Of a stretch of DNA of 64,000 nucleotides, positions 25,132-37,429 are shown one piece after another. The DNA comes from Devosia pacifica (lineage in GTDB: Bacteria; Pseudomonadota; Alphaproteobacteria; Rhizobiales; Devosiaceae), in NCBI RefSeq assembly GCF_014652635.1, contig NZ_BMZE01000005.1, forward strand, positions 40,001 through 104,000, in the 5' to 3' direction. The position numbers and the translations under genes are program-made. Numbering within the stretch: the stretch's first letter is position 1; every line of letters begins with the position of its first letter. The notes below the pieces were generated by a model. It saw only the letters and a program-made list of their open reading frames with translations. It ran no database searches and was not told where the DNA came from.

Positions 25132-25584
25132 CTACTGCGCTTCCTGCGCCGTGATCAGACCGATACGCGTATACCCTGCCCCGGACAGCAGCCCCATCAC
25201 CCGCATCACCGCGCCGTAATTGGCGTTGGTGTCGCCGCGCACATAGATGCGCTCTTCTGGCCCGTTTTCCGCCCGCGCGTTGATCGTGCCGGCTAGACTC
25301 TCATAGGGAATTTGTTCGTCATCGATGAAGATCAGCCCATCAGGGCTGACCGTTACCGTGATCGGCTCGCTCTCGGTGTTCATCTCGCGAGCCTGCGTCT
25401 CAGGCAGGTCGATCGGCACCCCAACAGTCATCAGAGGCGCAGCGACCATGAAGATGATCAGCAGCACCAGCATAACGTCGACCATCGGTGTGACGTTGAT
25501 CTCGCTCATCAGGGCACCGGAATGCCGTCCCCTGCGTCCTCGCCGTCGACCGCCTCCAGCCGCGCTGGGCCCACCCATCGCCAT
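25132..25584 (-). CDS. tolR: Biopolymer transport protein TolR (ExbD family)
   Basis: Inner-membrane stator component that forms the proton-driven motor with TolQ. 150 residues. A Gly/Arg-rich cytoplasmic N-terminus is followed by [19 protein letters not shown], where the Asp in MVDVML is the proton-binding residue of the ExbD/TolR transmembrane helix (about 30-52), then a periplasmic domain. The ATG overlaps the tolQ stop by 1 bp (TAATG). Confidence 0.95.
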
Positions 25585-26297
25585 TAGCGGCCGCCCCGCG
25601 CCTCAAGCTGGCGCGAGAGGATCGTTGAGAACTCGTCCGCAAAACCTTCGAGGCGCGAGATCAGCTTGCCCGCGTCAGACGACAGCTTGTTGTAGGCGAT
25701 AACCGCCGGAATGGCTGCGATCAGACCAATTGCGGTTGCAAACAGTGCTTCGGCGATCGGCCCGGCAACAACCGTCAAATTGGTGCTGGCTGCCTGAGCG
25801 ATTCCTGTAAATGCGTTCATGATGCCCCATACCGTGCCAAAAAGGCCAATAAATGGTGCTGCAGAGCCAACTGTGGCGAGAAAGCTCAACCGCTTCTCAA
25901 GGTTTTCGCTCTCACGGGCAATTGCCACATCGAGCACTTTTTCGAGACGAGCCTGTACCCCGAGATAGCTGGCAGCATTCTGCTCGTGACTGCGCTTCCA
26001 TTCCTTCATGGCCGCAACGAAAACGGCACTCAGCCCGGTCTGTGGCTGTTGGGATTGCTCCTGATAGAGCTCTTCAAGAGACTGGCCCGACCAGAACACC
26101 CGTTCGAAGCGGTTCATCGCGCTTTTCGTCCGGCGGTACTGGATTGTCTTGTCGACGATGATCGCCCAGCACCAGATCGAGGCACCGAGCAGGCCGAGCA
26201 TCACCGATTTCACGACCAGGTCTGCCGCCCAGAACAGCCCCCAGATCGAAAAATCCGTGTGGGCCGCAGCCGTACCCACGGCGTCCATCGCTTCCAT
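25584..26297 (-). CDS. tolQ: Tol-Pal motor protein TolQ (ExbB family)
   Basis: Polytopic inner-membrane protein with three transmembrane helices that conducts protons with TolR. 237 residues from the ATG at 26297, which has AAGGATC upstream; an in-frame ATG at 26399 adds 34 residues without family similarity. The conserved MotA/TolQ/ExbB block VGSAAPFIGLFGTVWGIMNA is present, with the C-terminal TM around LFATAIGLIAAIPAVIAYN. It is the first gene of tolQRAB; a 170-bp upstream region holds phased repeats. Confidence 0.96.
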   Translation of the reverse strand: MEAMDAVGTAAAHTDFSIWGLFWAADLVVKSVMLGLLGASIWCWAIIVDKTIQYRRTKSAMNRFERVFWSGQSLEELYQEQSQQPQTGLSAVFVAAMKEWKRSHEQNAASYLGVQARLEKVLDVAIARESENLEKRLSFLATVGSAAPFIGLFGTVWGIMNAFTGIAQAASTNLTVVAGPIAEALFATAIGLIAAIPAVIAYNKLSSDAGKLISRLEGFADEFSTILSRQLEARGGR

Positions 26298-26432
26298 GTC
26301 GTGATCCTTCTCGGTTCGGTCCCAATAACCGACCCCGCTGGGCACCGGATGGGGTCGAAATTTGTCAAATTTAAGAGAAATATACCGCTGTATCGCCAAG
26401 TGCCGAGGGTGCTGCAGGCCATTCGCACTATG

Positions 26433-26460
26433 GTCAACAACAGGTTAACTTTGCGTCAAC
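26433..26460. promoter_or_regulatory. Three 11-bp-phased GTYAAC repeats upstream of tolQ
   Basis: GTCAAC (26433-26438), GTTAAC (26444-26449) and GTCAAC (26455-26460) recur with an exact 11-bp period, separated by 5-nt spacers. Tandem direct repeats on one helix face are the usual target of OmpR-family regulators. They lie about 135 bp before the tolQ start, just past ybgC. The regulator is unknown. Confidence 0.45.
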
Positions 26461-26467
26461 TGCCCAC

Positions 26468-26860
26468 TCACGCTGGGTTGATTGCTGAGCGAAGACTTTC
26501 CGGTAGTCGCGTGGCCGAGCCGGTATCGAGACGAATGACGACGATGCTCAGGCTTGCTCGTGTCAGGACATCGCCGTCGCGGGAAATGTTCTGATCGAGC
26601 AAGAGCCGCGCGCCGCGCATTTCACTGAGCCGCGTGCTCACGCTCAATAGGTCATCGATATGGGCCGGCTTGTGGAAGGTGATCTGCATATCCCGCACAG
26701 CAAAGGCGAGGCCTGTCTGAGCAAGTTCGGCGTGGCCTATTCCGAGCGCACGCAACCATTCCGTACGGGCCTGCTCAAGAAACTTGAGATAGGCAGCGTG
26801 ATAGACATTGCCGGAAAAATCGGTGTCCTCGTAATAGATACGGACCGTGAACGTGTGCAT
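26468..26860 (-). CDS. ybgC: Tol-Pal-associated acyl-CoA thioesterase YbgC
   Basis: Hotdog-fold thioesterase acting on short or long acyl-CoA or acyl-ACP, linked genetically to the Tol-Pal cluster and to phospholipid metabolism. 130 residues. The catalytic motif YYEDTDFSGNVYHAAYLKF is at 9-27, with the active Asp in DTD. In many alphaproteobacteria ybgC follows ruvB directly; here the phytochrome cassette lies between them, and the single-domain response regulator ends 13 bp upstream. Confidence 0.93.
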   Translation of the reverse strand: MHTFTVRIYYEDTDFSGNVYHAAYLKFLEQARTEWLRALGIGHAELAQTGLAFAVRDMQITFHKPAHIDDLLSVSTRLSEMRGARLLLDQNISRDGDVLTRASLSIVVIRLDTGSATRLPESLRSAINPA

Positions 26861-26873
26861 TGCGCTCCGCAGA

Positions 26874-27239
26874 TCAGCGCTGCAGCTGGCGCTGTATCAC
26901 CTTGCCCAACTTGTCGAAGTCGTAGGGTTTCTCAAAGAACACGGCACCCTTTGGCAACTCGTCTGCATCCGGTCGGATCTTGCCCGAGCAGACGATGACG
27001 GGCAAGTCGGCAATCAGACCACTTGCATGACGGGCCAGATCAAGACCGTCAAGCGTTCCCGGCATATGGATATCGGTGACGATCAGGTCCACCTGCTGCC
27101 CATCGTCCATCAGTGCTTTCGCCTCATCTGCGGTACCGACTTCCAACGGTGCATTGCCTTGTTCTTCAACGAGCGATGCGAGGCACATGCTGATCAACGG
27201 CTCATCCTCGACGATTAAAATTCTAGCCGTTCTAGCCAC
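26874..27239 (-). CDS. Single-domain response regulator (CheY-like)
   Basis: Receiver-only protein of 121 residues. The acidic pair is E11-D12 (VEDE), the phosphoacceptor is D56 (VTDIHMP), the Thr/Ser position is in VIVCSGK and the conserved Lys in FEKPYDF. The start is GTG with AGAAGGAG upstream. It has no output domain, so it acts by protein contact or as a phosphate sink. It lies 78 bp downstream of the hybrid kinase, and C-terminal FEKPYDFDKLG resembles receivers of hybrid kinases. Phosphorylation by that kinase or by the phytochrome is inference. Confidence 0.88.
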   Translation of the reverse strand: MARTARILIVEDEPLISMCLASLVEEQGNAPLEVGTADEAKALMDDGQQVDLIVTDIHMPGTLDGLDLARHASGLIADLPVIVCSGKIRPDADELPKGAVFFEKPYDFDKLGKVIQRQLQR

Positions 27240-27317
27240 TCGAAACTCCTTCTTGGGTCAGCAAGGCTCAATGGCCCGCCTACTGAAGCAGTTCCGCCAA
27301 GGAGAAAAAGTGATCGC

Positions 27318-29687
27318 TCAAGAAGAGATCAGCTTTCTGATCACACTGGCAACGTCTTCGGCTCTGAAAGGCTTTGAAAGCATTGCCATTCCCGAATCCA
27401 GGTATTCGGCGCGTCGCTCGGCACCATGTGCATAGCCGGTGACGAACAATACGGGCATGTCGGGTCGTTTCTCGCGAATACGCTCTGCGAGTTCCCGCCC
27501 GTTCATGCCTGGCAAGCCGACATCAGAGATCACCAGGTCAATTCGCCGATCCGAGTTGACGATCGGCAGAGCCGATTGGGCATCGCTCGCCTCAATGCTG
27601 TGATAGCCAAACTGGTCGAGGATCTCGAGCATGAGCATGCGCACAGCCGAGTCATCCTCGACAACCAGCACCACTTCTTCCTCCCGGGCGCGCTCGATAT
27701 CTTCGGCAGCGATCATGCTGTCTGCCGGAGTTTCCTCTTCCGCCCGGCGCAAATAGAGTTCGATATTTGTGCCTTTGTCGAGCACCGAGCGAATCCGCAC
27801 CTGCCCACCAATCTGGCGCACGAAGCCATAAACCATTGAAAGGCCGAGCCCGGTGCCCTGGCCAATCGGCTTGGTGGTGAAGAACGGATCGAAAGCTTTG
27901 GAAATCGTCTCTTCGGACATGCCTTCGCCAGTGTCCGACACCCGCACCAGAATATAGTCGCCCGGCTCGGCGCCTTCGATATCGCGGTTCGCGGTTTCGG
28001 CCGGCACATTGGCCGTTTCGATGCGCAGAACACCGCCATCGGGCATGGCGTCGCGCGCATTGATCGCGAGATTGAGGATAGCGCTTTCCAGCTGGTTGGG
28101 ATCAGTATAGCCGAACCAACCATCGGGCTGCATCACCAGCTCCAACTTGATATTTTCGCCGAGCGTCCTGCGCAGCAGATCCTCCATCGACATGATGCTC
28201 TTGTTGGCGCTGACAGACTGAACATCAAGCGACTGCCGTCTCGAAAACGCCAGCAGCCGTTGCGTCAGAGAAGCCGCGCGATGAGCAGAACTTTGAGCGG
28301 CGCTGAGAAAACGTTCAACATCGTCATAGCGCTGATTGGCGATACGGCGCCGCAATACGTCCATCGCGCCCACAATGCCCGCGAGGAGGTTGTTGAAGTC
28401 GTGTGCGATTCCGCCGGTCAACTGACCGATCGCCTCCATTTTCTGCGCTTGGCGCAGCACGTCCTCCATCTGCTTCACACGCTCTTCCGCTTCACGCTCC
28501 TCGGTGCTGTCGCGGCCATTGGCGTAGATGACCCCCATCTCGTCGATAGTGGCACTCCAGGATATCCAGCGGCTGCTCCCATCCTGATGCGTCAGCCTGC
28601 ACTCGAACTGGATGGGCAGTTGCGGGATCGCCTCTCGAAGAGCGCGTTCCATTTCATCGCGGTCGTCATCATGGGTGAAATCGATAAATCTCTTGCCGAT
28701 GACCTGCTCCGGTCCGTGTCCCAGAATGCGTTGCCATGATGGCGCGATATCGCGCAGGCGCCCGTCGGCGCCGAGGACCAAGAGAAGGTCCTGTGAATTG
28801 CGCCACAGCAGATGGCGCTCCATTGCCTGCTGTTCGACACTAGCCTCTAGTGAGGCCGTGCGGTCGAGAAGCGCCAATTCTGCAGTCTTTTCGTCACTGA
28901 TGTCGCGAACAACCCCGACAAGACGAACGCACTTGGACCCGCTGTAGATTCCACTCCCAATGCTCTCGATCCAGCGAATTTCATCATCTGCAAGAAGCAC
29001 ACGAAACTGTTCGTTGAAATCCGGATGCTCGGGCCCTCCGGTGGCACGCCGAACCGCCGCATCGACGCGCTCGCGGTCGTCCGGATGCAAGGATGACAGG
29101 AATAGCTCGTACGCGACCCTCGTCGTCTGCGGCACGCCGAAGAGCGCATGGCAGCGGGCGTCCCAAACCAGTCGATTGCGCAGCAGGTCGAAGTCCCAGC
29201 CGCCGAGGCGAGCTGCACGCAACGCGATGCGGCTACCAACTTCGCTTGCCCGCAGCGCTGACTCCATCGCCTCGCGCTGGCGACGCTCCTGTGCCTGGTA
29301 CATCGCGCGGCTGACAGCGACGTGCAGCCGTCGAAGATTGCGTTTGGTGACATAATCGCTGGCGCCCTGCTGCAGGGCCTGAGTCGCGAATTCTTCACCA
29401 ACAACCCCGGATACGAAGATGAACGGCAACTGGGGGTGCAAGGCGCGCGCGATTTCAAGCGCGCGCAGGCCATCAAAGCCGGGCAGTGAGTAATCTGCGA
29501 GGACCAGGTCCGGCTCGTCGCGAAGCGCCTTCTCGTAATCCTCGCGCGTGGTGACGCGCTCGAGCTCGAAGCCAAACGGGCCGCTTTGAAGATGAGATTC
29601 AATGAGGTCAGCGTCGATATCACTGTCCTCGAGCATGACGATTCTGTAGTGGACGCGCTCCGCCTCGCCAGCGGGTTCAGCGTGCAT
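27318..29687 (-). CDS. Hybrid sensor histidine kinase (REC-PAS-PAS-HisKA-HATPase-REC)
   Basis: Cytoplasmic, with no transmembrane segment. 789 residues: N-terminal receiver (about 13-130, D65, K115), PAS (about 155-270), PAS (about 295-405), HisKA with H429 in GGIAHDFNNLL, HATPase (about 525-650, N box INARDA, G boxes DTGEGM and GTGLGLS), and C-terminal receiver (about 671-789, D722, K772). A kinase starting and ending with receivers can both accept phosphate and respond to it. The ATG has GAGGTAATC upstream and overlaps the upstream response-regulator gene by 11 bp, so it is downstream of phytochrome in one operon. The PAS ligands are unknown. Confidence 0.93.
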   Translation of the reverse strand: MHAEPAGEAERVHYRIVMLEDSDIDADLIESHLQSGPFGFELERVTTREDYEKALRDEPDLVLADYSLPGFDGLRALEIARALHPQLPFIFVSGVVGEEFATQALQQGASDYVTKRNLRRLHVAVSRAMYQAQERRQREAMESALRASEVGSRIALRAARLGGWDFDLLRNRLVWDARCHALFGVPQTTRVAYELFLSSLHPDDRERVDAAVRRATGGPEHPDFNEQFRVLLADDEIRWIESIGSGIYSGSKCVRLVGVVRDISDEKTAELALLDRTASLEASVEQQAMERHLLWRNSQDLLLVLGADGRLRDIAPSWQRILGHGPEQVIGKRFIDFTHDDDRDEMERALREAIPQLPIQFECRLTHQDGSSRWISWSATIDEMGVIYANGRDSTEEREAEERVKQMEDVLRQAQKMEAIGQLTGGIAHDFNNLLAGIVGAMDVLRRRIANQRYDDVERFLSAAQSSAHRAASLTQRLLAFSRRQSLDVQSVSANKSIMSMEDLLRRTLGENIKLELVMQPDGWFGYTDPNQLESAILNLAINARDAMPDGGVLRIETANVPAETANRDIEGAEPGDYILVRVSDTGEGMSEETISKAFDPFFTTKPIGQGTGLGLSMVYGFVRQIGGQVRIRSVLDKGTNIELYLRRAEEETPADSMIAAEDIERAREEEVVLVVEDDSAVRMLMLEILDQFGYHSIEASDAQSALPIVNSDRRIDLVISDVGLPGMNGRELAERIREKRPDMPVLFVTGYAHGAERRAEYLDSGMAMLSKPFRAEDVASVIRKLISS

Positions 29688-30129
29688 GATTACCTCGCGG
29701 CGGGGGCTCGTTCAGCACAGCCCAGAACATGCCAAGGTCCTGGATCGCCTCGAAGAACGCGTTGAAGTCGACCGGCTTGACGACGTAGGCGTTGACGCCC
29801 TGCTCGTAGCTCAAGAGGACGTCCCGCTCCTCGCGCGAGGCGGTCAGCATCACCACCGGAATCTGGCGCTGCATCGGATCCGACTTAATCTTTTCGAGAA
29901 CCTCGAGGCCATCGACTTTCGGCAGCTTCAGATCAAGCAGCACTACAGCCGGATTCCCTGGGTCACGCCCTTCGTGCTCGTTTCGCGCATACAGGTAATC
30001 GAGCGCCTCTGCACCATCGCGTGCAACGACGATGTCGTTGGCGAGCTGGCACTTGGCAAGAGCCGCCATCGTCAGTTCCAGATCTCGCGGATTGTCTTCG
30101 ACCAACAATATCGGACGCAGGTCTGCCAA
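29677..30129 (-). CDS. Rcp1-type response regulator of the phytochrome
   Basis: Receiver-only protein of 150 residues with the longer loops typical of the Rcp1 group that partners phytochrome kinases: LLVEDNPRDLELT at the N-terminus, an insert around LYARNEHEGRDPGNP, phosphoacceptor D66 (LLDLKLPKVDGLEV) and the Lys in YVVKPVDF. It starts 3 bp after the phytochrome stop, which strongly suggests it takes phosphate from that kinase. No output domain. Confidence 0.92.
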   Translation of the reverse strand: MADLRPILLVEDNPRDLELTMAALAKCQLANDIVVARDGAEALDYLYARNEHEGRDPGNPAVVLLDLKLPKVDGLEVLEKIKSDPMQRQIPVVMLTASREERDVLLSYEQGVNAYVVKPVDFNAFFEAIQDLGMFWAVLNEPPPRGNHAR

Positions 30130-30132
30130 TTC

Positions 30133-32307
30133 TCAACGCTCCTTGTCGGTCAGCGGCAACAGGATGCTGAACACCGCGCCCTCATTCACCTTGCCACGGG
30201 CTTCCACCCTGCCACCATGCCGGTCGACGATACGCTTTACGAGCGCAAGGCCGATGCCCGTGCCCGGAAAGTCTTCAACACGGTGCAGCCGCTGGAACAC
30301 CCCAAACAACTTCTCTACGTAGGTCATGTCGAAGCCGACACCGTTGTCGGCAATCTCGTAACGAACGGTGTTTCCTTCAACATCACCACTGATGCGAATA
30401 ACCGCCGGATCGCGGTTCTGCGAGTACTTGAGAGCGTTGTCCACGAGGTTGTGAAGAGCCTGACGCAGCAGTGAACCATCGCCAAAGGCGCGAGGGAGAT
30501 CGCCAACATCCCATCGGACATTGCGGCCATTAATGTCGGGCTCGAGTGAGCGCTGCACCTCGCTCACAAGCTTGTTCATGTCTACGCGGCTCTTTTCGAC
30601 CCTGGCGCGACCAAGTTGCGAGAAACTCAGCAAATCATCGACCAAACGCCCGGCGGAAAGTGCGGCATCGGTGATGTTCTGCAAATAGTGCCGGGACTTC
30701 TCGTCAAGGTTCCGCTCACGCTCCATCAGCAGTTCAGCGAACCCGACGATATGACGGAATGGCGCCCGCAGATCGTGCGAGACCGAATACGAAAACGACT
30801 CCAGTTCCTTGTTCGAGCGCTCGAGCTCATTGCTGAGTTCAGCACGCTCTTCGGCACGCAGAAGAATGAAATTGAGCAGCGCATTGCGAAAGTCATCTGC
30901 GCTCTCGGTTTCGGCATTTGTCCAGGGAACGGATGTGCCCGTCACCTCCTGCTTCCACTGCGCAAAAGACGTGCGCGGCGTGAGGGTCTTGGCGTCCATC
31001 GGCTTTCGCGGATCGCCGCCCCAGGTTACCGTACTGACGACCTCGGGACGAAACCACATTACGAACGACGGGTGCAGTTGCGAGATTGGAATAGCTAGGA
31101 GGCCGCTTGCGGTGTCGGTTACGTCTGCCCCCTCGGCCCAGTGGTCCCCCAGATGTTCGGTTGCGAACACACCATTGATCTCTTGCCCGCCTAGCCAGTC
31201 CGCAAGCCTGACCAGCGTATCGAGCGGCGGTACCGCACCAGCGGTGCGCACGCTTTTTTCGGTGACTACAGCGGCACCTGTGGCGCCGGTCAATGCCAGC
31301 CAAGGCCGACCGTTCTGAGCAAGAGCCTCGGGAATGTCGCGCGCTGCAGAAAGCCGGGCGACGAGTTCCGTTTCCTGACGCTTGAGCTCGATCCTGCGCG
31401 CGGCGTGTGCGCCACGTACGACAGAGCTGATGCGCAACGAGGCGAGTTTGGCGATGAAATTGCACGCCGCGCGCACCTGCGGCGAGACCCGCTTCGACTC
31501 CAGGCTATGGCACGAGATCAACCCCCAGAGCTGATCATCCACGATGATCGAGACTGACATCGAAGCGTATGTGCCCATATTGCGCATATATTGCAGGTGA
31601 ATGGGAGAAACGCTTCTTAGTCCGGCAAAACTCAAATCGAGCGGCCGACCGTCAGTGGGATTGAGTACCGGATCCAGCGGAACTGGCTCGTAATTGGCGT
31701 CAGGTATGATGCGCAGCGGGTTAGTTCGATACAATTCGCGCGCCTGTGCCGGAATGTCCGAGGCAGGGAACCGCAGGTCCAAGTAAGATTCGAGGGCGCC
31801 ACCAAGACTTTCGGCGATGACCGTTCCGTGCCAATCGCGATCGAAGCTGTAGACCATGACCCTGTCATAGCCGATGATGTCGCGGACCTCATCGGTGACG
31901 ATCTGTGCCACTTCGCCGAGATCTTCGATCTGTCCGATCGCATCGGCCAAGCTCTGCAGTCTAGGGTAGATCTTATCCAGCGCCGCTGCTTCATCGTCTG
32001 GCGGACTCTCAAACTCGACAATCAGTCCCTGATCGCTACGATGCCCTGACACCTGAAAATTACGGTCGCGATACGAGATAGACTGCAGCAATGTCGACGT
32101 ATCGCTATTGGCCCATTCGCCGACAACGTCCGGCAACTCGTCAAGCTTGGTAACCTCGCCGTCCAGAAATTCCGCTGCATTAGCACTGCGTTGAATTATA
32201 CGGCCGCCGGGTCCGATAACCAGAAGCGCGCCATGCGGCTGAATTCCTCCGGGAACGCGAATGGGCTCCGCAGCGCAATTGTCGACAGTTACGCTCGCCG
32301 AACTCAT
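30133..32307 (-). CDS. bphP: Bacteriophytochrome histidine kinase (PAS-GAF-PHY-HK)
   Basis: Red/far-red photoreceptor with a biliverdin chromophore. 724 residues: PAS (about 10-110) with the chromophore-attachment Cys C11 just before the PIRVPGGIQPHG motif; GAF (about 130-300) with PASDIP at 181-186 and H267 next to the chromophore; PHY (about 315-480) with its tongue motif P444-R-T-S-F448; HisKA with H511 (SVSHDLRAP); HATPase with NLVDNALKYS, DNGVGFD and GTGIGLALV. All key residues are present, so photoactivity is likely. The gene overlaps heme oxygenase by 4 bp (ATGA) and precedes its response regulator by 3 bp. Confidence 0.97.
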   Translation of the reverse strand: MSSASVTVDNCAAEPIRVPGGIQPHGALLVIGPGGRIIQRSANAAEFLDGEVTKLDELPDVVGEWANSDTSTLLQSISYRDRNFQVSGHRSDQGLIVEFESPPDDEAAALDKIYPRLQSLADAIGQIEDLGEVAQIVTDEVRDIIGYDRVMVYSFDRDWHGTVIAESLGGALESYLDLRFPASDIPAQARELYRTNPLRIIPDANYEPVPLDPVLNPTDGRPLDLSFAGLRSVSPIHLQYMRNMGTYASMSVSIIVDDQLWGLISCHSLESKRVSPQVRAACNFIAKLASLRISSVVRGAHAARRIELKRQETELVARLSAARDIPEALAQNGRPWLALTGATGAAVVTEKSVRTAGAVPPLDTLVRLADWLGGQEINGVFATEHLGDHWAEGADVTDTASGLLAIPISQLHPSFVMWFRPEVVSTVTWGGDPRKPMDAKTLTPRTSFAQWKQEVTGTSVPWTNAETESADDFRNALLNFILLRAEERAELSNELERSNKELESFSYSVSHDLRAPFRHIVGFAELLMERERNLDEKSRHYLQNITDAALSAGRLVDDLLSFSQLGRARVEKSRVDMNKLVSEVQRSLEPDINGRNVRWDVGDLPRAFGDGSLLRQALHNLVDNALKYSQNRDPAVIRISGDVEGNTVRYEIADNGVGFDMTYVEKLFGVFQRLHRVEDFPGTGIGLALVKRIVDRHGGRVEARGKVNEGAVFSILLPLTDKER

Positions 32308-32903
32308 GCTGCCACCCTCTGCCCGTCACCCAGCCAGCGATACATCAATTCAAAGCAGGAATTTGCGCCGGCAATTGCCTGCGTCTGCTCCGCACGCCCC
32401 GAAAGAGCGTTCAGGCGAACGGTAAAGTCTCGCCACATCGGCCCGGTCTCTTCCTGGTAGGGATCAAAATAGCTGGCTCTCGTAATGGGCCAATCCGCCT
32501 GCCGCTTCAATGCCTTGGTGATCACCTTGCCCCCGAGCGTAGAGCCTTCGAGGACGTACATAACACCGAACGCACTACCCCGCCCCTGGACCAGGTCTGC
32601 AGCCGCGCTGCACCTCGGCAGAGCGTTAAGGCTGGCATCGTCATGGCCGAGGTCGAGAAGGTCATTACGCAACAGCGCAGCCTTATGGCAACGCGCCGCA
32701 AGGTCGGCAGGCAGGTTGCGCCGGAGCTGGGATTCCAATGCGCCAACCATGCCGTGAAAGCGCTCGAGCATGCGCGTCGCAATCTCGACACTTGGCTGCG
32801 TGAGATCAAAGCCGACGACAGCTTCGAGACGCTCATGGGCTTCATGTGTCTCTGTTCGGAGCAGTTCAGATAGTCTTAGTTCAGAAACGTCAGGCGAGGG
32901 CAT
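32304..32903 (-). CDS. bphO: Biliverdin-producing heme oxygenase BphO
   Basis: Opens heme to biliverdin, the chromophore of the downstream phytochrome. 199 residues with the helical heme-oxygenase fold. The proximal heme ligand should be a His in ETHEAHERLE (H20 or H23), and the distal-helix motif reads YVLEGSTLGGKVI with the family's flexible Gly pair. It is first in the bphO-bphP-regulator-kinase operon, 81 bp after the NUDIX gene. The ribosome-binding site is weak (GGACCCCGA). Confidence 0.93.
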   Translation of the reverse strand: MPSPDVSELRLSELLRTETHEAHERLEAVVGFDLTQPSVEIATRMLERFHGMVGALESQLRRNLPADLAARCHKAALLRNDLLDLGHDDASLNALPRCSAAADLVQGRGSAFGVMYVLEGSTLGGKVITKALKRQADWPITRASYFDPYQEETGPMWRDFTVRLNALSGRAEQTQAIAGANSCFELMYRWLGDGQRVAA

Positions 32904-32984
32904 TCGGGGTCCGGGTAGCGTTTAAGCATTGGTGTAATCCTTTTGCCTCACTACCAGTTGCATTTGGCAGGGACTGCGGGCCAA

Positions 32985-33494
32985 TCAGCTAAGATAATCC
33001 GCGATGACGTGTTTCGTCGAGGAGGCATCAAGACCTTCGATATCCGGCAGGGTATTCGCCAACCATTCCGGCAACAAACGCACCTTGTAAAGTGCGCCGG
33101 CCTCAAGTGGGACCCAGTCGAAGTATAGTTGATGGCCCTCATCCTCGCGTTCTAGCCAGGGACTGCGCCCGTCCGGACGCGCACTCTGAGGCAATCGGGC
33201 AGCATAAAAGATACCGAGTTCGTGAAAGGCTTCCCCGTCGCGGCGATAAAGGGTCTCAGAGGTCAGTATCAGCTCACCGATTGCTGCCTCATATCCGGTC
33301 TCTTCGCGTAATTCTCTTTCCAGCGCGAGGCTGCTTGTCTCGCCCAACTCCACCCGTCCGCCGGGCAGCATCGTGTAGTCGTCATCGTCCTCTCGCGAGA
33401 CCAGAAGATGTCCCTCGACAATGATGATGGCGGCGACCCGATAGTTGAACCGCATGCCATCGAGCGGGAAGCTCAGCATCTGACGCGGGATCAT
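32985..33494 (-). CDS. NUDIX hydrolase
   Basis: 169 residues. The NUDIX box [25 protein letters not shown] fits Gx5Ex7REUxEExGU, so a Mg-dependent pyrophosphohydrolase acting on a nucleoside diphosphate linked to another moiety. The substrate cannot be told from sequence. The ATG overlaps the ruvB stop by 4 bp, so it is the last gene of ruvC-ruvA-ruvB-nudix, in which every junction is a 4-bp overlap; a housecleaning role alongside DNA repair is plausible but inferred. Confidence 0.9.
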
Positions 33495-34525
33495 TCATCC
33501 TCCGAAAAGAGACTGCTCTGCAGGCCGACGAAGCCCTGAGGTACCTGTCGGCCGAGATGCTGGAAAGCCAGCGCCGTCAGCAGGCGACCCCGCGGAGTGC
33601 GCTGGATAAAGCCCTGTTGCAACAGATAGGGCTCGACAATTTCCTCAATGGCGTCGCGAGGCTCTGACAGCGCTGCCGCTATGGTTTCGATACCGACCGG
33701 CCCGCCGCCATAAAAATCGACAATGGTATCGAGATATCGCCGATCGAGCTGGTCGAGGCCACGTGCATCGACATCGAGCCTCAGCAGCGCCTTGTCGGCA
33801 ATGGCCCGATCGATCGTTGCAACGCCATCGACCTGAGCAAAGTCCGCCACCCGCCTGAGCAACCGTCCGGCGATACGCGGTGTGCCGCGAGAGCGCCTGG
33901 CCACCTCCATAGCGCCATCAGGACTCATCGCCATGCCCATCAGACGCGCACCGCGCTCGACGATCCTCACCAGTTCTTCGGGGGTATAAAAATTCAGCCG
34001 CACAGGTATGCCGAACCGGTCCCGCAGCGGCGTGGTTAAAAGACCAGCTCGGGTGGTAGCACCCACCAATGTGAACTTGGCGAGATCGATGCGGACGGAG
34101 CGGGCGGCGGGCCCCTCGCCAATGATCAGATCGAGCTGGAAATCCTCCATCGCCGGATAGAGAACCTCCTCGATCGCAGGATTCAGCCGATGGATTTCGT
34201 CGATGAACAGCACATCGCGGTCTTCGAGATTGGTCAGAAGCGCCGCAAGATCTCCGGCCTTGGCAATGACCGGACCGGACGTTGCCCGAAACCCCACGCC
34301 AAGCTCCTTGGCGATGATCTGCGCGAGGGTGGTCTTGCCGAGGCCAGGCGGGCCGACGAACAGCACGTGATCAAGCGCCGCCTGGCGCTGCCGAGCCGCC
34401 GAGATGAAGACTTCGAGGTTTGCTCGTGCCGCGGACTGGCCGATAAAATCGCCAAATCCCGAGGGTCGCAGCGACACATCAAGCGCATCGTCGCGGCCAG
34501 CTTCGGCAGAGGTCATGGAAGTCAC
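33491..34525 (-). CDS. ruvB: Holliday junction branch-migration helicase RuvB
   Basis: AAA+ motor that drives branch migration with RuvA during recombinational repair. 344 residues: Walker A GPPGLGKT near 58-65, Walker [10 protein letters not shown], sensor [18 protein letters not shown], and a C-terminal winged-helix domain. It starts at GTG 34525, overlapping the ruvA stop (GTGA); an in-frame ATG three codons later is the alternative. Confidence 0.97.
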
Positions 34526-35139
34526 GCGCTGAGCTCCTTCAATCCGAGACGGATCAGCTTGTCGGTTGCGATGTCATCGCCGTCGCGCGCAACGATGCGG
34601 GCAATTGCGCCCGAGGCCTGCGCGCTCGAATACCCAAGATTGACGAGCGCCGAGACGGCGTCGGCGGCAGATCCCGTTGCTGTGCCCTCGCCGATAGAAG
34701 ATTGCAGCCCCAGGACCGAAGGATCGACCGCTCCAATTGCGGGAATCTTGCCTTTGAGTTCGCTAAGGATGCGCTGAGCCAGCTTCGGCCCGACGCCACT
34801 CGCCCGACCGATCATTGTCTTGTCCTGCAAGGCGATGGCGCTTAGCAGTTCGGATGGTGAGGCCGTCCCCAGAATGGCAAGGGCCACGCGCGAGCCGACC
34901 CCCTGCACGGTCATCAACAAGTGAAACCAGGATTTTTCGGCCTCGGTGGCGAAGCCGAATAGCCTGATCATGTCTTCTCGTACGTAAGTCTCGATATGGA
35001 GCACCGCGCTTTCGCCGACACGCGGCAGCGCCCGAAGGGTCCGGCTTGAGCAAAAGGCCTCGTAGCAAACCCCACCAACATCGATCAGCACACGGTCATC
35101 GCCGAAACTGTCGATCTGACCCTTGAGCTTTCCGATCAT
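34522..35139 (-). CDS. ruvA: Holliday junction branch-migration protein RuvA
   Basis: Tetrameric four-way-junction-binding subunit that loads RuvB. 205 residues: N-terminal OB-fold ([13 protein letters not shown]), helix-hairpin-helix region ([14 protein letters not shown] and [16 protein letters not shown]) and a C-terminal UBA-like RuvB-binding domain (about 155-205). The ATG at 35139 overlaps the ruvC stop (ATGA) and is preferred over an upstream ATG inside ruvC. Confidence 0.96.
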
Positions 35140-35630
35140 GCCAGAGCTTTCACGCGAGCCGCGGCAACGCGATGATGGGCGTGGCATATGGCGACTGCCA
35201 GCGCATCCGCAGCATCGGCGTCACCGGCTTTGGATCCCGGCAACAAGGTCTTGACCATAAGCCCGATCTGGTCCTTTGCCGCATGGCCAGTGCCAACCAC
35301 GGACTTTTTCACAAGATTGGCTGCGTATTCCGCTACCGGCAACCCGCGGATTGCGGGTGTCAGCAGGACGACGCCGCGTGCCTGTCCTAGGGTCAATGCC
35401 GAGCGCGGGCCTTTGTTGACGAAGGTTTCCTCAACAGCAGCTTCGAGCGGCCTCATGCGCCCGAGAACGGCATCAAGTTCACGATGCAGAACCGCCAGGC
35501 GCTCCGCGAGCTCTCCCTCGGTCGGAGGGCGGATCGTGCCACACTCAACAAAGCTGAGCCTGCTGCCCTCTACCTCGATCACTCCCCAGCCACAGCGCCG
35601 CAGCCCCGGATCGATGCCAATGATTCTCAT
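35136..35630 (-). CDS. ruvC: Holliday junction resolvase RuvC
   Basis: Dimeric endonuclease that cuts Holliday junctions symmetrically. 164 residues with an RNase-H-like fold; the first catalytic Asp is D7 in [14 protein letters not shown], the conserved Glu is in EETFVNKGP, and the C-terminal acidic pair is in [11 protein letters not shown]. The ATG at 35630 gives the family N-terminus; 27 in-frame upstream codons are ignored. The gene opens the ruvCAB-nudix operon; two diguanylate cyclases separate it from yebC. Confidence 0.96.
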
Positions 35631-35819
35631 TTCGCTTGCCTCGGTATCATGGCGCACCTCTAACTCCAGATCGCCAAGCATCCAAGACAGAAGCGAACAA
35701 AAAGAAAACATTGCATGGCGTGTCGGACGGCATTTACCGGATCGAAACCACGGCCGGCAGGCTAGTGTAAACTTCTGACCAATACTCTGTGCTCATTCAA
35801 GGACTTAACGGAGATCATC

Positions 35820-36584
35820 ATGACAGCCGCCGGCACGTCCCTTCCGCCGCAGGCATGGTCGCGAATTCGGGTGATCTGGTTGATCATGACCGTAGTCTCG
35901 GTGGTCGTCTCCGTGTTGCTTACCACATTGATCCTCAATCGCTTCTCGGCCGGCATCAGCATTGCCGGACTTATGGCCGCCACGGTGATGCCGCTGACGC
36001 TGGGGAGCCCGTTGATATTTTACATGACACTCAAGCACGAGCAGATCAGGCATGCCAATGCACGGCTCACGGTTCTTGCGACGATTGACTGGCTGACCGG
36101 TTGCCTCAACAGGGGAGCCTTCAGCGATCGCGTCGAGACGGAACTGGCGACCGGCGTCAATGGCGCGCTGCTGATCGCCGATGCCGATGCTTTTAAGCTT
36201 GTGAACGACAAGTTCGGCCACCAACAGGGCGATGTGGCGCTCCGCTTGATTGCAGACGCGATCAAATCCGCAGTACCGCAGACAGCTCATGTCGGCCGCC
36301 TCGGCGGCGAAGAATTCGGGGTGTTCGTCGCCGGGACAACGGCTGAGGAAGCTCGAGAGCTCGCCGCCGATATCAGCCATGCCGTAAGGTCCGCACACTT
36401 CGCGCCCACTGAAAGAGACTGGCCGCTATCGATCAGCATCGGCATCGCACAGTCGCACAAGGGACTCATGTTCGATGAATTGTATCGTCTTGCCGACGCC
36501 GGCCTTTACGCGAGGAAAGCCGAGCGCGCGCTGATCCGAACGAGCGAGGCCGCCAGTGCCTCGCTCGAACGCGACGCAGCCTGA
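35820..36584 (+). CDS. Membrane-bound GGDEF diguanylate cyclase (first of a tandem pair)
   Basis: 254 residues: two transmembrane helices (about 17-39 and 48-70) with almost no periplasmic loop, then a GGDEF domain (about 85-245) with DADAFKLVNDKFGH for metal and substrate and the active loop GGEEF at 162-166. It should make c-di-GMP from two GTP. The RxxD inhibitory site expected five residues before GGEEF is absent (PQTA), so product inhibition should be weak. It is paralogous to the next gene and divergent from ruvC. No sensory domain is visible beyond the membrane anchor. Confidence 0.92.
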   Translation: MTAAGTSLPPQAWSRIRVIWLIMTVVSVVVSVLLTTLILNRFSAGISIAGLMAATVMPLTLGSPLIFYMTLKHEQIRHANARLTVLATIDWLTGCLNRGAFSDRVETELATGVNGALLIADADAFKLVNDKFGHQQGDVALRLIADAIKSAVPQTAHVGRLGGEEFGVFVAGTTAEEARELAADISHAVRSAHFAPTERDWPLSISIGIAQSHKGLMFDELYRLADAGLYARKAERALIRTSEAASASLERDAA

Positions 36585-36634
36585 GTACAATTTTATCGGT
36601 GCTTTGAAATCGCTGTTATCGCCTCATCAGCTAG

Positions 36635-37429
36635 ATGGGGATATTCGGACTGGATGCTTTCACCTTGCAACGTTCCTCCTTTTCCCTGCCGCGTTGGGCC
36701 TCGATCAATCGCTGGGCGATCGTTGGACCGCTGATATGCGTGGTGCTGACGCTCATCTTCAACTCGATGCTGTTTGCCGATCTTGGCGAGCAAGCGCTTG
36801 AGCGGGCGCTGATCAGCAGCATCGTCGTGCCTTTGGCGATCGCATTGCCGTTCTTCACTCTTGTGGGCGCAAAGATGCGGTCCATGGCCATCGCCAACTC
36901 CCGACTCAGCATTATTGCCCGGACAGATACGCTGACCGCCTGCATGACCAGGGCCGCCTTCACCCGGCAGGTCGAGGACATGCTGGACAACCGTGCCGGT
37001 ATGACTGGCGCCCTGCTGATGCTGGACGCAGATTTCTTCAAGGCAATTAATGATCAGTACGGCCACCCGGCCGGGGATCAGGCACTGTGCCTTATCGCAC
37101 GATCGATTCGCACCACGGTGCGCCGGGGCGACCTCGTCGGTCGCATGGGCGGCGAAGAGTTTGCAGTCTTCATGCCTGGCGCCAGCAGCCAGGACGCGGA
37201 ACAGGTGGCGGAGCGAATCCGAAGATCGGTCCGGCTTGCCATGTTCACGCCGGACGGGAGTCCGCGCTCGCTCAGCGTCAGTATCGGTGGCGCCAGCCTC
37301 TCTGAGGCGTCAGGATTTAGTGAGTTGGTGCGTACCGCTGACCGGCAATTGTATCTGGCGAAGCAGGCAGGACGCGACAGTATCCGCATCGCGTCCCTGT
37401 CCAGTGAGCTTTCACCCGATGTAGCTTGA
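36635..37429 (+). CDS. Membrane-bound GGDEF diguanylate cyclase (second of a tandem pair)
   Basis: 264 residues with the same layout as its neighbour: transmembrane helices about 27-47 and 58-80, then GGDEF with DADFFKAINDQYGH and GGEEF at 172-176. Unlike the upstream paralogue it keeps the allosteric I-site R163-R-G-D166, so c-di-GMP should feed back on it. It starts 50 bp after the first gene and its stop is 2 bp from the convergent yebC stop. The pair probably arose by tandem duplication. Confidence 0.92.
   Translation: MGIFGLDAFTLQRSSFSLPRWASINRWAIVGPLICVVLTLIFNSMLFADLGEQALERALISSIVVPLAIALPFFTLVGAKMRSMAIANSRLSIIARTDTLTACMTRAAFTRQVEDMLDNRAGMTGALLMLDADFFKAINDQYGHPAGDQALCLIARSIRTTVRRGDLVGRMGGEEFAVFMPGASSQDAEQVAERIRRSVRLAMFTPDGSPRSLSVSIGGASLSEASGFSELVRTADRQLYLAKQAGRDSIRIASLSSELSPDVA

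Follow-up and report, generated by a model that had tools for sequence, protein, structure and literature searches.

A window of 64,000 nucleotides from Devosia pacifica (assembly GCF_014652635.1, contig NZ_BMZE01000005.1, positions 40,001 to 104,000 of the forward strand; positions below are those of the window) carries a set of light-signalling genes at 26874–32903, on the minus strand between the ruvB/nudix gene pair and ybgC. How did this cassette come to lie there, and with which neighbours is it transcribed? Our preferred answer, to which we give a probability of roughly 0.55, is that a phytochrome phosphorelay operon of known type moved into the ruvCAB-nudix-ybgC row and is probably co-transcribed, at least partly, with ruvCAB-nudix.

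A cassette in the ruvB-ybgC interval

The minus-strand genes run in the order ruvC, ruvA, ruvB, nudix, bphO, bphP, regulator, hybrid kinase, receiver, ybgC, tolQ-R-A-B-pal, where ruvC, ruvA and the tol genes bear names that we presume from familiarity with such sequences (for ruvA and tolQ, also from position). The cassette begins 81 bp (spacer 32904–32984) past the nudix hydrolase gene (32985–33494, Pfam), which often neighbours ruvB in the genus and here overlaps it by 4 bp (ruvB, 33491–34525, open reading frame and Pfam). The heme oxygenase gene bphO (32304–32903) overlaps the bacteriophytochrome histidine kinase gene bphP (30133–32307) by 4 bp; 3 bp further on, a single-domain response regulator gene with a TTG start (29677–30129) overlaps the hybrid kinase gene (27318–29687) by 11 bp. 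A last single-domain receiver gene (26874–27239) follows after a spacer of 78 bp (27240–27317), and ybgC (26468–26860), whose acyl-CoA thioesterase product scores above the TIGR02799 cut-off, starts 13 bp beyond it. All five cassette frames are open, and coordinates and Pfam matches agree with the sequence-only reading of this DNA, which had described a tight cluster of the first four genes plus a further receiver gene between nudix and ybgC.

That reading had also called the cassette an insertion, recalling that in alphaproteobacteria ruvB is closely followed by ybgC, and genome comparison bears out both points. In a genus sample of 75 genomes, RuvB was found in 74, YbgC in 74 and both in 73 (on one contig and strand each; G046 and G061 were left unmeasured). 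The ruvB-ybgC distance was 8–2200 bp in 72 of the 73 (median over all 723 bp), an interval too short for the cassette in every case, and only in the window's genome did it reach 6633 bp. Among 134 alphaproteobacteria, RuvB was present in 124, YbgC in 115 and both in 110, in nine of them on different contigs. The 101 genomes with both genes on one contig and strand had distances of up to 300 bp in 90 cases and up to 2500 bp in 97; the remaining four had 4059 bp, 6633 bp (the window's genome), 198 kb and 662 kb. Because the interval is short in 72 of 73 genus genomes and in most alphaproteobacteria, the cassette is best described as a derived insertion between nudix and ybgC, unique in the genomes searched. 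The interval of 4059 bp belongs to another alphaproteobacterium (G529:C1:706567-710625).

The native site could be read in 71 genus loci, 56 of which contain the nudix gene; other genus loci hold or add a gene that we take to be metallophosphoesterase-like, plus a few small genes. Spacing between nudix and ybgC in the 56 was −5 to 8 bp in 30, 201–211 bp in 14, 73 bp in one and 498–909 bp in 11. One similar small protein is encoded in at least six of the fourteen 201–211 bp spacers (in the others the frame read was another, longer one), and no match to the relatives' small frame was found in the window at E 1. The interval is thus a tight gene row that tolerates small additions, and no genus genome measured has a larger insert than this cassette. 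No YbgC of the genus is more diverged than that of the window (mean identity 59.7% against a median of 74.3%, 56 genomes compared); RuvB is likewise lowest in the window (88.4% against 91.7%), and the divergence of YbgC exceeds the RuvB-based expectation.

The insert shows no scars of its arrival. Its genes have a G+C content of 0.557–0.596, slightly under a mean of 0.612 (sd 0.016) for 40 long frames of the window, similar to nudix, ybgC and tolQ (0.573–0.583), and a third-position G+C content of 0.64–0.73 against 0.70 (sd 0.05). Foreign composition was therefore dropped as an argument: nothing points to recent transfer, which is not proof against transfer. Repeats at the borders did not exceed chance (longest direct 9, longest inverted 10; 200 shuffles gave a mean of 8.8 and a maximum of 13), no tRNA was found in the window, no tandem repeats in 26–34 kb and no Rfam match at the gathering threshold in 20–40 kb.

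Cassette proteins and related modules

Pfam assigned to the five products, in order, heme oxygenase; PAS_2-GAF-PHY-HisKA-HATPase_c; a receiver; receiver-PAS-PAS-HisKA-HATPase_c-receiver; and a receiver. All five BphP domains score above their Pfam cut-offs, as in bacteriophytochrome kinases, the protein has a structure match, and its PHY domain is the sole one in the window's genome. Cys11, within NCAAEP, aligns with a Cys of 8uph, as expected of the N-terminal Cys for biliverdin. The words NCAAEP, PASDIP and SPIHLQYM, the phospho-acceptor His511 and the N and G boxes were all located, as were the phospho-acceptor Asp and the conserved Lys in all four receiver domains of the cassette. All the residue words sought were found, and the earlier statement that chromophore and kinase residues are present stands. 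Which residues are essential is a matter of general knowledge, the Cys and positions H+1 and H+4 being covered by PMC8292422. Against the NCBIfam equivalog model for BphP (NF041576) the protein reaches 307.3 bits, below the curated cut-off of 1040.

The H-box of BphP reads His511-Asp-Leu-Arg-Ala. According to PMC8292422, Agp1 of Agrobacterium has Asp at H+1 and Ala at H+4 and is a kinase in the dark state, whereas DrBphP of Deinococcus radiodurans has His and Glu at these positions and is a phosphatase; Agp1 activity is not decided by H+4 alone. Since the window's protein has the Asp and Ala pattern, it should be Agp1-like.

The regulator gave its top PDB matches to 5brj (1.9e-62, residues 2–141) and 5ic5 (6.1e-58, residues 4–146), also matches chains named RcpA, Rcp1 and RcpB, and consists of a single receiver domain, all in keeping with an Rcp1/BRR-type regulator. 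It carries the C-terminal stretch FWAVLNE. We take 5brj, presumably AtRR1, and 5ic5 to be bacteriophytochrome regulators that form arm-in-arm dimers. This identity fits the available text of PMC8292422 and PMC6848086. Pfam found no DNA-binding output domain in the cassette; therefore, the final target of the pathway must be encoded elsewhere.

The closest published arrangement is the putative operon hmuO-RtBphP1-RtBRR-RtBHK of Ramlibacter tataouinensis, whose gene order as given in PMC6848086, with a CheY-type regulator and a hybrid kinase called atypical, is that of the Pfam assignments in the window. A mutant lacking this hybrid kinase resembled in phenotype the mutants lacking either phytochrome. 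The likeness is one of published gene order; Ramlibacter is a betaproteobacterium, and the available text mentions no ruv or tol neighbourhood. Agp1-AtRR1 shares with the window the H-box pattern and a related regulator (5brj), and the available text of PMC8292422 mentions neither a hybrid kinase nor a heme oxygenase partner. In D. radiodurans, bphO-bphP-bphR form an operon of heme oxygenase, phytochrome and regulator like that in the window (PMC8363230), and DrBphP differs from the window's protein in the H-box residues and activity given above. The LvrA/LvrB models NF047465 and NF047466 are matched as well, by the kinase half of BphP at 219.9 bits and by the hybrid kinase at 214.9 bits, where the first receiver is the better of two matched stretches. 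Both scores lie below the curated cut-offs of 1200 and 500 bits, so that the two proteins are not members. In LvrA/LvrB, an upstream kinase feeds a receiver-fronted kinase.

Related modules occur at other sites. The genus search with BphP gave many kinase-only or distant phytochrome matches, and we used nearly full-length ones only. Among the matches listed, these occur at an identity of at least 50% in at least 4 of 74 other genus genomes (G071 and G025, 63% identity; G024 and G028, 50%), in two more of 136 family genomes searched (G460, 60%; G488, 48%) and, in an order-wide sample of 397, in nine genomes of other families (49–54%). The regulator gene and then a third gene whose product begins with a receiver come after bphP in 15 of 16 further loci (the exception, G397, is a 35% relative); the same receiver opens the third gene in three of four loci from a named collection (Bordetella, Niveispirillum and Caballeronia, not Pseudoduganella). 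A heme oxygenase gene precedes bphP at more than 70 bits in 5 of the 16 (G071, G025, G460, G300 and G227; weaker matches would escape notice). All four genes, including one for a hybrid kinase that aligns end to end, are present in G071, G025, G460 and G300; G071 and G025, both of the genus, carry the set away from the ruvB-ybgC interval, and in G071 a receiver gene also follows the hybrid kinase gene. Identity to G071 and G025 is 81–87% for the regulator, about 63% for BphP, 60–61% for the hybrid kinase and 43–44% for BphO, the least conserved core protein.

In ten comparison loci (L183, L185, L186, L188, L191, L086, L015, L182, L184 and L187), Pfam assigned the third product as receiver-HWE in five, receiver-PAS-HWE in two, receiver-PAS-PAS-HisKA-receiver in two and receiver-HisKA-receiver in one. 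Since the first receiver is kept while the output half varies, the pattern suggests that this domain is the entry point of the phytochrome signal into the kinase.

Taken together with the published systems, the following pathway can be proposed. BphO would make biliverdin from heme, and BphP would bind it at Cys11, acting as a kinase in the dark-adapted, red-absorbing state and becoming less active after red light. Phosphate would pass to the Rcp1/BRR-like regulator, to the N-terminal receiver of the hybrid kinase, or to both; the phosphorylated receiver would set the hybrid kinase's own relay, ending at a target encoded outside the cassette.

As to descent, a quick BphP tree of 21 rows gave (G460,(window,(G071,G025))) with starred branches, and a RuvB plus YbgC tree was weak, with the window on a long branch. 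Among the frames compared, no flanking frame is common to the window, G071, G025, G460 and G300. A copy of the left-flank gene of G071 was sought in the window's own genome; only matches of 44–47% to a 60-residue piece appeared, and a clean empty site could not be named. Two histories would fit: an old descent in which the module was lost and moved many times, or transfer within the family. G025 (L085) and G028 (L087) have one flanking frame in common (75–77%) despite their different phytochrome clades.

Transcription across the locus

The sequence-only reading had suggested that light signalling may share transcripts with the DNA repair genes upstream or the Tol-Pal genes downstream. A candidate upstream promoter lies ahead of ruvC (35136–35630, start taken at ATGAGAATC), which is followed by the ruvA frame (34522–35187). 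Two plus-strand genes at 35820–37429, presumably for diguanylate cyclases with membrane segments, stand back to back with ruvC. Upstream of ruvC, at 35695–35709 on the minus strand, is the sequence GTTTTCTTTTTGTTC (GTTT-N7-GTTC), one mismatch from GTTC-N7-GTTC, which PMC3323433 gives as the alphaproteobacterial LexA motif along with putative LexA sites at ruvCAB in this class. One-mismatch matches number 44 in the window against 48 expected, and a single one is uninformative by itself. Out of 30 ruvB loci given, however, ruvC was found in 14, three of which miss the upstream stretch, and in all 11 readable genus loci (the window included) GTT[G/T]-N7-GTTC stands 71–79 bp before ruvC, in one conserved block.

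A search of the window's own genome for GTTB-N5-TT-GTTC gave 26 sites, and the reversed control gave 12 (the search required the TT, so exact sites without it lay outside). Thirteen of the 26 are of the GTTC kind. Six of these precede, at a distance of 38–225 bp, dnaE, ssb and uvrA, lexA, the gene of an SOS-associated peptidase, imuA and radA; the sites at dnaE and imuA were scored as falling within a frame that overlaps them, imuA was matched at less than its curated cut-off, and the frames of dnaE and uvrA are truncated where the locus ends. Of the remaining seven, some are close to prmA, a radical SAM gene or frames without a name, and others lie within frames. Because the ruvC site is conserved, exact sites of this form precede SOS genes of the same genome and the motif is that of PMC3323433, the cassette probably sits in an SOS (LexA-controlled) operon. 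The LexA-like site had no place in the sequence-only reading, and it makes the idea of a shared transcript more interesting.

Toward the other end, little space is left for a promoter belonging to ybgC, since in 30 relatives this gene lies −5 to 8 bp behind nudix. Between ybgC and tolQ (25584–26297) the situation differs. The spacer was compared in 18 of 30 loci given (60–280 bp, window included), omitting eight with spacers of 303–1367 bp and four that were unreadable. All 18 share the strongly conserved elements TTAACC..TTGACCATAA and CATTTCTCTTAATTTTGACAGATTTCG, which the window retains with a few changes within 26350–26450 (about 26428–26450 and 26350–26383, minus strand), the probable tolQ promoter region. 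These elements may be a CenR or CtrA target, and part of them resembles what we take to be a CtrA site. CenR of Rhodobacter sphaeroides is enriched upstream of tolQ and activates tolQRAB (PMC9275681), and a tolQ promoter is named upstream of the tolQRAB operon in Sinorhizobium meliloti (PMC7327166). Because the element is kept and these reports exist, Tol-Pal is probably insulated from the cassette, with tolQ keeping its own promoter. Sharing of transcripts is plausible with ruvB/nudix and, across a gap of 13 bp in which no terminator stands out, with ybgC; the part of the suggestion that concerned Tol-Pal is less likely.

Terminator-like matches in 23–38 kb number 11 (11.4 expected) and promoter-like matches five (4.5 expected). 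Since these counts equal chance, the scan cannot decide. The three spacers show no folding beyond that of shuffled sequences (z −0.32, 0.06 and 0.09), and strong terminators isolating the cassette are absent as far as the scan can tell.

Several points weigh against the preferred reading. The ruvC site is mismatched in its left half, here and in the other ten loci, and is exact in 0 of 14; the scans have no power; a weak minus-strand terminator-like match (27342–27327, six pairs, three of them G-C) sits at the end of the hybrid kinase gene, ahead of the last receiver gene; and the 81 bp before bphO exceed the usual native nudix-ybgC spacing. The last receiver is 38% identical to the one after the G071 hybrid kinase, yet 23 matches in other genus genomes outscore that counterpart, and next to the module in G025, G460 and G300 no match to it scored above 70 bits. 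By position the gene belongs to the insertion; its membership in the pathway is uncertain.

It is accordingly quite possible, if at somewhat below even odds, that the cassette is transcriptionally autonomous and came to lie in the ruv row by neutral chance, so that the location has no regulatory meaning. Since the 81 bp spacer is wider than the native −5 to 8 bp (30 of 56 relatives' loci), a cassette promoter within 32904–32984 is possible, and in other species the module stands at unrelated sites, so that it must use its own promoter or local ones. On the other hand, neither a promoter-like nor a terminator-like call falls on the minus strand of the spacer, and visual comparison of the sequences ahead of bphO in six genomes showed no common element; GGGAAC-like words ahead of some bphO genes were dropped as too weak.

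Other explanations fare far worse. That the cassette is decaying or non-functional cargo is improbable: BphO is the least conserved core protein, as such a view would have it, but the five frames are open and every residue word sought is in place. Slighter still is the chance of an ancestral placement with loss in most relatives. The BphP tree is compatible with descent within the family, but the interval is too short in the 72 other genus genomes and at most 300 bp in 90 of 101 alphaproteobacteria, and the two closest genus carriers have the module elsewhere; we rejected ancestral placement with later losses on these genus and class distances, which also answer the caveat of the sequence-only reading that most relatives might carry the same cassette here. 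An assembly artefact joining two loci is hardly credible, since, draft of nine contigs as the genome is, the locus is internal to a contig of 125,622 bp, frames reach both junctions and composition is close to that of the neighbours.

Under the preferred reading of an operon moved into the ruv row, a probable LexA-controlled promoter would serve ruvCAB-nudix and, at least partly, the cassette as well. Expression of ybgC would now require either transcripts that run on through the cassette or a promoter within the cassette, and tolQ would probably retain its own promoter.

A possible link between light sensing and the DNA-damage response

The cassette itself is of a known kind; its location is unusual. 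In the openly licensed papers searched we found no report of a bacteriophytochrome in Devosia or of one linked with ruvB in this way (ruvB by title and abstract start), nor, by titles and abstract starts, of a phytochrome under native LexA control. A further step, which we put forward as rather doubtful, is capture by the SOS response: damage would relieve LexA repression at ruvC, transcription would run from ruvCAB-nudix through the cassette into ybgC, and damaged cells would make more light receptor, together with the thioesterase, so that light could signal to them when to repair or to delay growth. Survival of Deinococcus in continuous mitomycin C is influenced by light and by its phytochrome (PMC8363230); ruvB and ruvC do not occur in the main text of that paper. 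For alphaproteobacteria, LexA control of a photoreactivation gene has been predicted (PMC3323433). Coupling of light to the SOS response would make sense because of the damage-survival role of the Deinococcus phytochrome and this predicted photoreactivation gene.

The related loci describe a modular pattern: a receiver-fronted kinase accompanies the pair of phytochrome and regulator, and the output half of this kinase is of either the HWE or the hybrid HisKA type. For D. pacifica, the locus poses a testable question: can a light receptor join the DNA-damage response merely by its landing site?

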